Shown here: piece after piece, positions 58,292 through 63,559 of the stretch | Position numbering within the stretch: the first letter of the stretch is position 1 | Layout of the letters: every line of letters starts with the position of its first letter | Assembly: GCA_028382005.1 (NCBI GenBank) | Contig: JAOESH010000001.1 | Coordinates: forward strand, 224,798 to 288,797 | Source: Pseudomonadota bacterium | Lineage (GTDB): Bacteria > Pseudomonadota > Alphaproteobacteria > Puniceispirillales > Marisalimonadaceae | Length of the DNA stretch: 64,000 nt | Reading direction: 5' to 3' | Notes under the pieces: model-generated | What the model saw: the letters and a program-made list of their open reading frames with translations, nothing else | Databases searched by the model: none | What the model was told of the DNA's origin: nothing | Program-made: the position numbers and the translations under genes

Positions 58292-58381
58292 TGGCGGAGA
58301 GGAAGGGATTCGAACCCTTGAGAGGCGTTAACCCCAACACGCTTTCCAGGCGTGCGCCTTAAACCGCTCGGCCACCCCTCC
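58292..58381 (-). tRNA. tRNA-Ser(GGA)
   Basis: 90-base serine tRNA with long variable arm; anticodon GGA in stem GCACGC/GCGTGT. Acceptor stem GGAGGGG with CCTCTCC closes (one G-T pair), discriminator G, CCA encoded. T arm has GGTTCGAATCC. It serves as the right boundary of the putative island, whose element side is toward its 3' end. Confidence 0.97.
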
Positions 58382-58883: not shown

Positions 58884-60686
58884 TTAATTATCTCCCATCT
58901 TAAGCGCTTCAAAGAATGCATTTTGAGGTATTTCAACTTTACCAAATTGTCTCATTCTTTTTTTACCTGCTTTTTGTTTTTCAAGAAGCTTTTTTTTACG
59001 GCTAATATCACCACCATAGCATTTTGCTGTAACATCTTTCCTCATAGGGGCTATCGTCTCTCTAGCAATTACTTTTCCTCCAATTGCAGCCTGCAATGCA
59101 ACTTTAAATAATTGCCTAGGTATCAAGTCTTTTAATCTTGTGCAAATAGCACGACCTCTATTTTCAGCTTGGTCTCTATGACTAATCATAGCTAAAGCAT
59201 CAACAGGTTCTCCATTTACTAAAATTGACACACGAACAAGATTACCTTGTTTGTAACTATCTATTTGATAATCAAAACTCGCATAACCAGACGTCATGCT
59301 TTTTAATTTGTCATAAAAATCAAAAACCACCTCATTAAGTGGTAATTTATAAATTATCATAGCTCTAGTACCAGCGTAAGTTAGATCTATTTGTTCCCCT
59401 CTCCTATCAGTACATAGAGTTAAAACAGCTCCAACATACTCATCTGGCACCAAAATTGTAGCTTTAATCCATGGCTCTTCTATGAAATTGATGTGATTGA
59501 TATCCGGTAAATCTGCTGGATTGTGAAGCAACACATTTGATTCGTCAGTTTTTTGAACTTTATACACAACCGAAGGTGCCGTTGAAATTAACTCTAAGTC
59601 AAATTCCCTAGTTAACCTTTCCCTTATTATTTCCATGTGTAATAAGCCTAAAAACCCACACCTAAACCCAAAACCTAAAGCAGCAGAAGTTTCTGCTTCA
59701 TAACTGAAAGAAGCGTCATTTAAAGATAACTTACTAAGGGCTTCTTTAAGATCAGAAAATTGGGCATTATCCATCGGAAAAAGTCCACAAAACACAACAG
59801 GTACAGAAGGTTTAAAGCCTGGCAACATTGTTTGAACTGGGTTTCTTTCGTCAGTTATAGTATCTCCAACTTTACAATCTGCAACAGTTTTAACTGATGC
59901 AGTAATAAAACCAATTTCTCCTGGTCCAAGTGTGTCTACATCAATAATTTTTGGTGTAAATATTCCTAGTTTTTCAATTGTATGTGATACTTTTGTAGAC
60001 ATAAAACGAATTTTTTGACCCTTTTTTAAACTTCCTTGCACCACTCTTACTAATGTTAAAACACCTAAATATGGATCATACCAACTATCTATAAGAAGTG
60101 CCTGAAGAGAGGCATTTATATCACCTTTAGGAGGAGCAAGCTTTTCAACTAAAGAAGATAGAACTTCTTTTATTCCTTGACCAGTTTTTGCAGAAACTTC
60201 AATGCCTTCGTCACCTGGCAATCCTATTACATCTTCAATCTGTTTTCTTATTCTTTCCGGTTCAGATGCAGGCAAGTCTATTTTATTAAGAACTGTTAAA
60301 ATTTCGTGATTAACTTCGATGGCTTGGTAAACATTAGCAAGTGTCTGTGCTTCTACACCTTGAGAAGAATCAACAACTAAAAGTGAACCTTCACAAGCAG
60401 ACAAAGATCTGGAGACTTCATAAGCAAAATCAACATGACCTGGAGTATCCATTAAGTTCAGGGTATAAGTCTTATTATCAGTGTGCTTATACAACAACCT
60501 TACTGTTTGGGCCTTAATAGTTATGCCTCTTTCTCTTTCTATATCCATGTTGTCAAGAACTTGCTCTTTCATTTCTCTATCGGCCAGCCCCCTGCATTCT
60601 TGAATAAGCCTGTCAGCAAGTGTCGATTTTCCATGGTCAATATGAGCTATAATTGAAAAATTTCTTATTAGACTAGTGTCTGTCAT
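58884..60686 (-). CDS. lepA: Translation elongation factor 4 (LepA)
   Basis: Full-length 600-residue GTPase that back-translocates stalled ribosomes and helps translation under stress. G1 [14 protein letters not shown], effector [14 protein letters not shown]3 [13 protein letters not shown]4 NKIDLP, and the specific C-terminal domain ending [20 protein letters not shown] with [10 protein letters not shown] are all there. Single core gene. Confidence 0.96.
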
Positions 60687-60788
60687 TAATACCCTACAAA
60701 ATGATCTCTAATTATAAACATTTTAATGCAAAGTAGTTTTAAACATGGTAATTTGCAATATTAAAAATGTTTTATTCTTTGTTAAAAC

Positions 60789-60816
60789 TTGACTAAATAA
60801 ATACTCAATTGATAAA
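60789..60816 (+). promoter_or_regulatory. Candidate promoter of the leuA leader
   Basis: TTGACT at 60789-60794 and GATAAA at 60811-60816, spacer 16. The predicted start of transcription is about 5 bases before the leader ORF ATG, so the leader could be translated nearly leaderless. Confidence 0.4.
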
Positions 60817-60827
60817 GTCTAGATATT

Positions 60828-60932
60828 ATGAAATCAAAATATAATTCACATCATACAGAGGTTTTAACTTTATTAAGTAACCCGCGCTCTGCGGAGTTCG
60901 GGATTGTCTACTTGTTAATTAATTTAACTTGA
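60828..60932 (+). CDS. Leader peptide ORF upstream of leuA
   Basis: 34-codon ORF reading MKSKYNSHHTEVLTLLSNPR, then SAEFGIVYLLINLT, ending 30 bases before leuA. It has six leucines including a TTA-ACT-TTA-TTA run and TTG-TTA, so ribosome stalling on leucyl-tRNA shortage could control leuA by attenuation. The hairpin CCCG-CGGG with inner CTC-GAG spans the codons after the leucines. No strong ribosome-binding site; may be leaderless. Regulation is inferred. Confidence 0.5.
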   Translation: MKSKYNSHHTEVLTLLSNPRSAEFGIVYLLINLT

Positions 60933-60961
60933 GTTTTGAACTTAATAAAAGGTAAAGAATT

Positions 60962-62629
60962 ATGAATAAGAATTTTAATAAATACAACCCATATCCTCCT
61001 ATTAATATCTTAAATAGGCAATGGCCAAATAAGATAATAACTAAAGCGCCTACTTGGTGTTCAGTAGATTTAAGAGATGGTAATCAAGCCCTTATAGAGC
61101 CTATGGATGCCACAAGAAAAATGAAAATGTTTAAACAATTGATTAAAATGGGCTTTAAAGAAATAGAAATTGGTTTCCCGTCTGCATCTGAAACTGACTT
61201 TAATTTTGTTAGAGAGCTAATCGCAAACAATCACATACCTTCAGATGTAACCGTTCAAGTATTAACTCAATCTAGAAAAGAACTTATAGAGAAGACTATA
61301 GACAGTTTAGAAGGATGTAATAAAGCAATTGTCCACCTTTATAATTCTACAAGCACGTTGCAGAGGGAAGTGGTTTTTAAAGAAAGTATGGAAGGGGTCA
61401 AAAAAATTGCAACTGACGGGGCTAAAATTATTATAGACCATTTATCTAAATTGAAGAAATCAGAAATAAGGTTACAATATTCCCCAGAAAGTTTTACAGG
61501 AACAGAATTACCATATGCCCTTGAAGTGTGCGAAGCTGTTTTAGATGTTTGGAATGCGACTGAAGACAAACCAGTTATTATTAATCTACCTGCCACTGTT
61601 GAAATGTCTACTCCTAACATTCATGCTGACCAAATTGAATGGATGGGAAATAATTTTAATAACAGAAAACGTGTTATTCTATCTCTTCATCCTCATAACG
61701 ATAGAGGCACAGCGATTGCCGCAACAGAATTAGGTTTAATGGCAGGTGCAGACAGAGTTGAAGGAACTTTATTTGGAAATGGTGAAAGAACTGGCAATGT
61801 TGATCTTGTTACATTAGGGCTTAATTTATTTACTCAAGGCGTAAATCCTAATTTAGATTTTAGCAAAATAAATGATTTAATTGAAACAGCAGAATTTTGT
61901 AATAGGCTTCCCATTCACGAGCGACACCCATATGCGGGATCTTTAGTTCATACCGCATTTTCAGGCAGTCATCAGGATGCAATAAGAAAAGGGATGGACG
62001 CAATAGCTAAATCTAAAAGTGACACGTGGTCCGTTCCATATTTACCTATCGACCCTGCTGATATTGGTCGTGACTATGAAGCCATAATAAGGGTAAACAG
62101 CCAATCTGGGAAAGGTGGAACGGCGTGGATACTTGAAAATGACCATCAAATTCGTTTACCTAAAGGCGCAGAGATTGAGCTTTCTTCACAAATACAAAAA
62201 ATTGCTGATACAACAGGTAACGAAATTACAAGCGATATAATTTGGAAAACTTTCTCAGCAAATTTTATTATTGACGGACCTTTTACCTTAATTGATTTTA
62301 ATGTTGAAGGTGCAAATAGAGAGTCAAATTTAGAAATAGTTAATACTAAAATTAAACATAAAAATGAAATTTTTGAATTTTCTTCTCAAGGAAATGGTCC
62401 TATATCAGCATTTGTTAATGGAATTCGAGAAAACTTTGATTTACAATTTACATTAGAAGATTTTGGACAAAACACTAGAAGTGCAACATCAAAAGCTGAA
62501 TCTGCTGCTTATGTGGAACTAAAAATCAAAAACGGCGAAAAATCTATTTTTGGTTGTGGCATCAATACAAGTATCACATTGGCACCAATACTAGCAGTAG
62601 TGAGTGCTCTCAATAAGTTTGGAAATTAG
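60962..62629 (+). CDS. leuA: 2-isopropylmalate synthase, long form
   Basis: 555-residue enzyme joining acetyl-CoA and 3-methyl-2-oxobutanoate, the first committed step of leucine synthesis. The catalytic VDLRDGNQAL, HLYNSTSTLQREVVF and metal HPHNDRGTAIA are in the TIM barrel; the C-terminal LeuA dimer domain (about 425-555) gives leucine feedback. It is the long LeuA2-type, common in Actinobacteria and some Alphaproteobacteria. Regulated possibly by the upstream leader ORF. Confidence 0.93.
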   Translation: MNKNFNKYNPYPPINILNRQWPNKIITKAPTWCSVDLRDGNQALIEPMDATRKMKMFKQLIKMGFKEIEIGFPSASETDFNFVRELIANNHIPSDVTVQVLTQSRKELIEKTIDSLEGCNKAIVHLYNSTSTLQREVVFKESMEGVKKIATDGAKIIIDHLSKLKKSEIRLQYSPESFTGTELPYALEVCEAVLDVWNATEDKPVIINLPATVEMSTPNIHADQIEWMGNNFNNRKRVILSLHPHNDRGTAIAATELGLMAGADRVEGTLFGNGERTGNVDLVTLGLNLFTQGVNPNLDFSKINDLIETAEFCNRLPIHERHPYAGSLVHTAFSGSHQDAIRKGMDAIAKSKSDTWSVPYLPIDPADIGRDYEAIIRVNSQSGKGGTAWILENDHQIRLPKGAEIELSSQIQKIADTTGNEITSDIIWKTFSANFIIDGPFTLIDFNVEGANRESNLEIVNTKIKHKNEIFEFSSQGNGPISAFVNGIRENFDLQFTLEDFGQNTRSATSKAESAAYVELKIKNGEKSIFGCGINTSITLAPILAVVSALNKFGN

Positions 62630-62638
62630 AATTTAGTA

Positions 62639-63559
62639 ATGAAAAATAAAAGTATCTTTCTTAATAACAGAACCATTTTAAAAATATCAGGTTCTAATTA
62701 TTTAAATTTTTTAAATAAAATTTTAACCTCTGATATTACTAAACTTAAATCAAAGGAGGTTATACCTTGTGCATTGTTAACTCCACAAGGTCGTATTTTA
62801 TTTGATCTGTTAATTAGCCTAGGCCCTGTGCAAAAGATTAGCGATTTAGGATGTGTTTTAATTGAATGTGACTTTGTCCAAGCAGACAATTTATTTAAAA
62901 AAATTAATATGTATAACTTGAGAAAAGAAGTTTTAATTGAACAAACTAATTATAAAGTATTTGTAACAGATCATCCTAAAGATTATCCCTCCTCATTAAT
63001 TGATAAAAGATTTTTTGAAATAAGCATAGGCCGGATTTATAGTACTTCAAAAGTTGAAAATATAGATTTAGAAATTCATTCAATTAATCAAGAGAATGTA
63101 AACTGGTATGATTTATTAAGGTATAAAAACTGTATTCCTGAAGGACCAAAAGAAATTATATCTAACGTTTCTCTACCCTTAGAAATAAATCTAGATTTAT
63201 TAGGTGGAATTAGTTTTGAAAAAGGTTGTTTTATTGGCCAGGAGGTTAATGCAAGAGTTAAATGGAAAGGTCTAGTTAAAAAAAAATATGTTCCTATTGT
63301 ATTGAAAAATAAAGATGTCTCGACAATAAGATTAAAAGAGCCTGGCAAAAATGGTATCTATTTAAATAATGCTGAAATTGGTCAGGTTATCTCAATAACT
63401 TATGATCAAATTGATAATAAATATCATGGCATTGCAATAATAAAATTAAATAATCTATATAACTTTGAAGAAAATGCGTCTCTTGAATGTGACTTTGAAG
63501 AATCAAAGATTAATATTAAATTTCCACAATACCTGCTTCCACTACCTCGCAAACCATAA
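62639..63559 (+). CDS. ygfZ: YgfZ/GcvT-like folate-binding protein
   Basis: 306-residue protein with the KGCFIGQEVNARVKWKG signature (about residue 199-215, cysteine essential in E. coli YgfZ). It helps build or repair iron-sulfur enzymes, together with folate. LLTPQGRILFDLLISLG is the N-terminal match. 9 bases downstream of leuA, likely same transcript. Confidence 0.88.
   Translation: MKNKSIFLNNRTILKISGSNYLNFLNKILTSDITKLKSKEVIPCALLTPQGRILFDLLISLGPVQKISDLGCVLIECDFVQADNLFKKINMYNLRKEVLIEQTNYKVFVTDHPKDYPSSLIDKRFFEISIGRIYSTSKVENIDLEIHSINQENVNWYDLLRYKNCIPEGPKEIISNVSLPLEINLDLLGGISFEKGCFIGQEVNARVKWKGLVKKKYVPIVLKNKDVSTIRLKEPGKNGIYLNNAEIGQVISITYDQIDNKYHGIAIIKLNNLYNFEENASLECDFEESKINIKFPQYLLPLPRKP

Follow-up and report, generated by a model that had tools for sequence, protein, structure and literature searches.

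A leucine-codon leader ORF ahead of leuA in SAR116 bacteria: a candidate ribosome-operated switch on leuA translation

A short ORF carrying leucine codons precedes leuA, the 2-isopropylmalate synthase gene, in a SAR116 genome, and we consider it fairly probable that this leader acts as a ribosome-operated leucine switch on leuA translation, that is, as a translational attenuator. Comparison with related genomes supports the ORF, its leucine codons, a fixed geometry between these codons and a hairpin (H1), and conservation of the RNA rather than of the peptide. If this reading is true, a leucine-starvation switch would be readable from sequence alone in abundant uncultured marine bacteria, in which evolution would keep the codon–hairpin geometry and not the peptide.

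Leader ORF and its locus

In the window (the whole 64,000-nt stretch of DNA analysed), the leader ORF occupies positions 60828–60932 of the forward strand, from the ATG at 60828 to the TGA at 60930–60932, and encodes the 34-aa peptide MKSKYNSHHTEVLTLLSNPRSAEFGIVYLLINLT; 29 nt separate this TGA from the ATG of leuA (60962). The ORF claimed at this place by the initial annotation is confirmed as a genuine feature, with a homologous leader in all 41 upstream regions examined. The leuA gene itself (60962–62629, forward strand) encodes a 555-aa protein identified by profile matches to TIGR00970 (753 bits, cut-off 697) and NF002991 (829 bits) and passes the NCBI cut-off for the long 2-isopropylmalate synthase. 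The lepA gene is divergent from the leader and leuA, and a tRNA-Ser (GGA) lies downstream of lepA at 58292–58381 on the reverse strand. The ORF 3' of leuA (62639–63559, forward strand) gave a weak GCV_T (folate-binding) match, under the Pfam cut-off.

A promoter-like sequence was also claimed ahead of the ORF, and we find one at 60789–60818 on the forward strand, with a -35 box TTGACT (60789–60794) and a -10 box TAAAGT (60813–60818), 18 nt apart and with TG. The region holds six promoter-like matches versus 4.6 expected by chance and the match at 60789 alone is not significant, but TTGACT lies 33–39 nt ahead of the leader ATG in 40 of the 41 family leaders (49 nt in one). The transcript would start at, or a few nucleotides before, the leader ATG. 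With the transcript start this close to the ATG, the ORF probably has no 5' untranslated region or almost none; for Sinorhizobium, the available part of PMC10117765 documents a trp leader ORF that is leaderless.

Distribution within SAR116

LeuA relatives in named genomes were mostly SAR116 cluster records. A DNA search of 101 genomes with the 185-nt leader returned a match in 33, full-length with E ≤ 1.7e-18 in 28 (own genome counted). Within the family, leuA was matched in 43 of 58 genomes; two of these were left out (G030, lacking the 5' part, and G052), and the remaining 41 upstream regions, drawn from four genera (g1–g4), all contain the leader with H1.

Among the 36 loci of LeuA relatives in named genomes, 33 upstream regions were read by eye, since L057, L064 and L065 begin inside the gene. 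Seven SAR116-order loci (L039, L042, L043, L047, L054, L062 and L066) show no such leader by eye and carry another conserved block, TATACAACAATTTCT...ATTACCGCATTTAATC...GATCTTTTTTCTGTTT, possibly another leuA control. Four others (L040, L041, L046 and L058) carry CGA-CTA in a leader ORF together with a hairpin CCCGGCTC...GAGTCGGG whose loop is longer, which by eye looks like an intermediate form.

Leucine codons and hairpin H1

The leucine core TTA-ACT-TTA-TTA (Leu-Thr-Leu-Leu) lies at 60864–60875 and H1, CCCG-CG-CTC-TGCG-GAG-TT-CGGG with a pair probability of about 1, at 60881–60902, both on the forward strand. The distance from the last Leu codon (60873–60875) to H1 is exactly 5 nt in 40 of 41 leaders and 11 nt in L163, which has an unrelated stem in place of H1. 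This spacing is kept although the last Leu codon (alternating between TTA and CTA), the downstream reading frame and the stop all vary. The initial placement of a hairpin over the codons after the leucines was right, and can be refined: the conserved trait is the exact 5-nt spacing from the last core leucine. The proposed leucine codons held up in the Leu-Thr-Leu-Leu core; the later Leu-Leu pair (60912–60917) sits in a variable tail and is not conserved.

H1 is 22 nt long in 40 leaders and occurs as 18 distinct sequences. Its pair 4–19 is G-C in 29 of 40 and U-A in 11 of 40, pair 8–15 is once U-G, and the inner positions 5–18 and 6–17 are paired in only 14 and 27 of 40, respectively; in L172 the pairs run through the internal loop. 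The 5-nt spacing, read against the general geometry of the ribosome, suggests that the last Leu codon would occupy the A site when the ribosome meets H1. The leader thereby has the general make-up of an attenuator, a short ORF with codons for the end product of the pathway ahead of the cognate gene.

Conservation of RNA versus peptide

Over 28 g1/g3 leaders (L024 left out), pN/pS was 0.60 for the N-terminal part, 0.41 for the Leu core and 2.32 for the H1 codons, where amino-acid-changing substitutions predominate and nearly all changes map to the loop or the internal loop of H1. The ORF ends before H1 in 10 of 41 leaders, all of which keep H1 and the Leu codons: L024 has a TGA directly after Leu-Leu, and nine g2 leaders have a TGA before H1, eight of them after a ...NLLIL-like ending. 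Hairpin and codon spacing are thus conserved and the peptide after the leucines is not; the conserved look of the leader lies in the RNA, which argues against a stalling peptide.

Such nascent-peptide arrest, in which the leader peptide itself would stall the ribosome, had been offered initially as the second possible reading, and we regard it as highly improbable. Amino acids are strongly conserved within g1 in the stretch N-P-C-S-K-E-[SF]-G, as an arrest peptide would have it, but precisely this stretch has the high pN/pS with changes confined almost wholly to the H1 loop and internal loop, and it is missing in the ten leaders with an early stop. These are the frame-breaking changes with a retained hairpin that the initial annotation had named as speaking against a peptide, and no peptide conserved near the stall site independently of the RNA was found.

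Predicted pairing with the leuA start

Folding predicts, as a computational result, that the 5' half of the leader ORF pairs with the leuA start. The putative anti-start strand UAUAAUUC (60840–60847, forward strand; codons Tyr-Asn-Ser) would pair with GAAUUAU at 60957–60963, in GAAUUAUG (60957–60964, forward strand), which comprises the 3' end of the ribosome-binding site and the leuA start codon. A second predicted leader pairing involves the segment before and over the ribosome-binding site, GAACUUAAUAAAAGGU (60938–60953, forward strand), with the Shine-Dalgarno box AAAAGG at 60947–60952; its partner is the Leu-codon stretch 60867–60878 here, and in most relatives it is AAGUUC from the Val-Leu codons.

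In ensemble folding of 28 g1/g3 leaders at 37 °C, leader AUAAUUC and GAAUUAU at the leuA start paired with a mean probability of 0.93–0.99, CCU with AGG of the Shine-Dalgarno box with 0.58–0.79, and the segment preceding that box with AGUUC from the Val-Leu codons with 0.62–0.72. The anti-start pairs are retained in 28 of 28 leaders, and RNAalifold on the 28-leader alignment agrees with the ensemble. Since two-sided changes are nearly absent (1 of 26 pairs), support comes from the shift of letters between genera and not from column covariation. The paired strands are AUAAUUC and GAAUUAU in g1 and g3, UUUGUCA and UGACAAA or, in L168, AUCCUAU and AUAGGAU in g2, and CAUAAUU and AAUUAUG in L163 (g4); the model thus predicts the same pairing anatomy in different letters across four genera.

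When only the part before H1 was shuffled and the opening cost of the leuA start compared, the native 5' half of the ORF made the start costlier to open, with a mean z of 2.15 over 41 leaders (g1/g3 2.02, g2 2.67, g4 1.95), values that are not independent because the sequences are related. The z score was above zero in 38 of 41 leaders, in all four genera (below zero in L006, L007 and L011), versus a mean of -0.17 (sd 1.27) when 38 window ORFs of at least 250 codons were tested likewise; a spread below 0.05 was set to exclude a control, and 38 of 38 were used. For the window leader the effect is modest, with a z of 1.42 (3 of 30 shuffles as good) and a leuA opening cost of 7.5, about the control-gene median (7.4), and the AT-rich pairing with the leuA start is weak. 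Sequestration of the gene start by the leader RNA by default, the hallmark of translational attenuators, is therefore predicted at the level of the family.

Placing a modelled ribosome footprint on the Leu codons cut the mean opening cost from 9.6 to 6.8 kcal/mol in g1+g3, from 13.3 to 7.5 in g2 and from 9.8 to 9.3 in g4, with a drop of at least 1 kcal/mol in 26 of 29, 9 of 9 and 1 of 3 leaders, respectively. With the footprint moved past H1, the cost in g1+g3 was back at 9.2 kcal/mol. In g1 the lowest cost often belonged to a footprint placed short of the last Leu codon.

Two further pairings were considered and rejected by eye: a local hairpin UUAAGUUuugAACUUAA before the Shine-Dalgarno box, which is mismatched in the many g1 leaders that read AAAUUuugAACUU, and pairing of the H1 3' arm with GAACUU, which is disrupted in GAGUCC leaders.

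Proposed mechanism

On the reading we favour, the leader ORF would be translated from the 5' end of the transcript, or nearly so. With leucyl-tRNA plentiful, ribosomes would clear the Leu codons and depart, and the freed leader would pair through its 5' half with the leuA Shine-Dalgarno box and start codon, leaving little leuA translation. With leucyl-tRNA short, a ribosome would wait while a Leu codon occupies its A site, aided by H1, whose base 5 nt ahead would lie at the mRNA entry of the ribosome as a road-block; by covering the anti-start strand, the waiting ribosome would allow leuA to be translated. Leader translation, stalling, the road-block role of H1 and the leucine response are all steps that we infer. 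The leucyl-tRNA attenuation proposed in the initial annotation gains support from the comparison, in that Leu codons stand at fixed positions ahead of a cognate gene and the codon–hairpin geometry survives changes of sequence and frame; of its overall reading, leucine attenuation is supported and the stalling peptide is not.

A wider family of leuA leaders in Alphaproteobacteria

Across the class, leuA was matched in 82 of 289 genomes. We counted 78 upstream regions: of the 81 non-own leuA genes, G107 and G299 were left out, L120 (G310) stands outside the 78 and its upstream region (L173) lacks CGACTT, L130 was kept with an offset of 10 bases, and L136 and L147 are short. The 7-mer CGACTTA occurs in 51 of the 78 regions versus 1.2 expected from a first-order Markov simulation, and CGACTT in 57 (two or more copies in 31, none in 21). 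Among 91 occurrences of CGACTT, 72 are in-frame CGA-CTT (Arg-Leu) within ORFs that begin with ATG, span no more than 50 codons and stop 9–36 nt further on; the same criteria in the other two frames gave 1 and 0.

The occurrences form two groups, often seen as two tandem leader ORFs before leuA and split here, crudely, by position: uORF1 (49 occurrences, beyond -205), often reading ...LLRL[TIS].PAL before its stop, and uORF2 (42 occurrences, nearer leuA), often ...LRLIGG.RA before its stop. A stable hairpin starts within 16 nt in 42 of 49 uORF1 and 33 of 42 uORF2 occurrences versus 104 of 390 random places, its loop touching the stop codon in 27 and 19, respectively. The commonest codon–hairpin offset is 5 in both groups, as determined by stem search (simple folding gave scattered values, with weak outer pairs added). 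In L081–L159 both tandem ORFs have hairpins and carry CGA-CTT in frame, with an A next to it; most of them share this A, for which the Leu codon alone is no explanation. A +1 frameshift at CTT-A was rejected because, by eye, the other-frame products are not conserved. Pairing of CGACTTA with a downstream complement was also rejected, as no more than 9 of 78 regions contain AAGTCG.

The SAR116 module and uORF1 have the same codon–hairpin spacing and are likely homologous, LINPAS occurring in both L002 and L086. A strict hairpin regular expression gave 13 matches in 79 upstream regions versus 1 in the reversed control, and was useful though too strict. Over 289 genomes, the pattern CCCGGCTC...GAGTCGGG proved unspecific: it occurred at 14 places in 13 genomes, and by coordinates just G182 and G296 had it at leuA. 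The pattern TTCGACTTANNNNCCCG hit 15 places in 14 genomes, 9 of them at leuA upstream regions by coordinates and the others elsewhere, and this search gave no evidence of the module before genes other than leuA. The analysis covered 7 of 58 plasmid records. Among named examples, Tistrella mobilis pTM2 carries two CGACTT sites, Sinorhizobium meliloti and Rhizobium leguminosarum plasmid leuA copies have a Leu-rich ORF lacking CGACTT, and a Sphingomonas has one Leu-rich ORF with CGACTT.

Tentatively, and with somewhat less confidence than we would need to call it probable, we propose as a whole that alphaproteobacterial leuA is governed by an undescribed module family: a short, often leaderless ORF ending ...Arg-Leu (CGA-CTT then A), a GC hairpin some 5 nt beyond the Leu codon, a stop codon often in the loop, and frequent tandem pairs. 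The hairpin would park the ribosome where the Leu codon fills the A site, as a sensor made of codon and road-block; outputs would differ by lineage, and SAR116 would keep one module, wired to direct sequestration of the leuA start. The tandem leaders would offer a system for studying two ribosome sensors in series with no obvious terminator.

Termination, Rho and RNA stability

H1 could instead be a weak intrinsic terminator whose formation is blocked by a ribosome stalled 5 nt upstream. At that spacing the first H1 pairs would be overlapped by such a ribosome, T makes up about 4 of the 8 nt that follow H1, a fairly U-rich tail in an AT-rich genome, and the Caulobacter ilvBN attenuator is described in the available part of PMC4117421 as blocking a terminator hairpin. 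Nevertheless, a terminator search of 60400–61300 found none before the gene, at least 6 T in the 8 nt after H1 occur in only 2 of 41 leaders, and GC-rich relatives show by eye no T tract directly after the uORF1 hairpin. We hold this explanation to be unlikely; the usual terminator form of attenuation is not supported, and pairing of the leader 5' half with the leuA start is the better candidate.

Less likely still, leader translation might act through Rho or RNA stability, with H1 serving as a hairpin that pauses or protects and with the pairing at the leuA start as a by-product. The two leader ORFs of GC-rich relatives can stand as far as about 370 nt upstream of leuA, and by eye no obvious terminator is present, so that a mechanism other than termination may be required in those genomes; for SAR116, however, this would leave the leuA-start pairing in four genera unexplained.

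Relation to known systems

In translational attenuators of the erm/cat type, a ribosome stalled on a leader ORF in response to an antibiotic uncovers a sequestered ribosome-binding site, with no terminator involved. The leader described here resembles them in its ORF, in a stall that would expose the ribosome-binding site and in the lack of a terminator; it differs in that the proposed signal is charged tRNA-Leu and the gene is biosynthetic. Attenuators of the leu and trp operons carry regulatory codons in a leader ORF and have a terminator/antiterminator output. Regulatory codons in a leader ORF ahead of a cognate gene are common to these operons, to Caulobacter ilvBN (PMC4117421, available part) and to our leader, whereas their terminator/antiterminator was not found here. 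The uORFC-8-2 motif before cysS in Rhodobacterales, likewise an alphaproteobacterial leader ORF with cognate codons, is described in the available part of PMC8632094 with an intrinsic terminator and concerns another amino acid.

At gathering score, Rfam yielded only a tRNA and no leader family in the window; a search of 60700–61000 at E ≤ 5 gave one chance match (12 bits versus a gathering score of 60), and 20 of 79 class loci at E ≤ 1 gave no family. A literature search for SAR116 and attenuator found no paper. Class-wide leaders may have been predicted before in literature outside the open papers; Vitreschak 2004 reportedly predicts branched-chain attenuators in alphaproteobacteria. The available parts of PMC1262725, PMC10117765, PMC4117421 and PMC8632094 do not describe the leader, and that of PMC2965389, searched for leuA, gave no match.

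The related idea in PMC1262725 is the LEU element, reported there, in the part available, from Actinobacteria: a leuA leader ORF with Leu codons, folded as a pseudoknot, whose base stem pairs the leader with the leuA Shine-Dalgarno box and includes the Leu run itself. Our leader shares the Leu-codon ORF and the predicted stem with the leuA Shine-Dalgarno box, and a related long-type LeuA is encoded (Nocardia match). The Leu-codon run pairs with that box in the window's minimum-energy fold, but most relatives pair a strand 5' of the last Leu codons, which, with the 5-nt codon–H1 geometry, sets the SAR116 leader apart from the LEU element as described in that source. In Nocardia farcinica (L178), a leader ORF MQRALLLGRRDGV reminiscent of the LEU element lies about 234 nt before the assumed leuA start; after it, by eye, comes a GC-rich hairpin whose loop holds the stop. 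This leader suggests that the LEU element of Actinobacteria and the modules of Alphaproteobacteria are linked.
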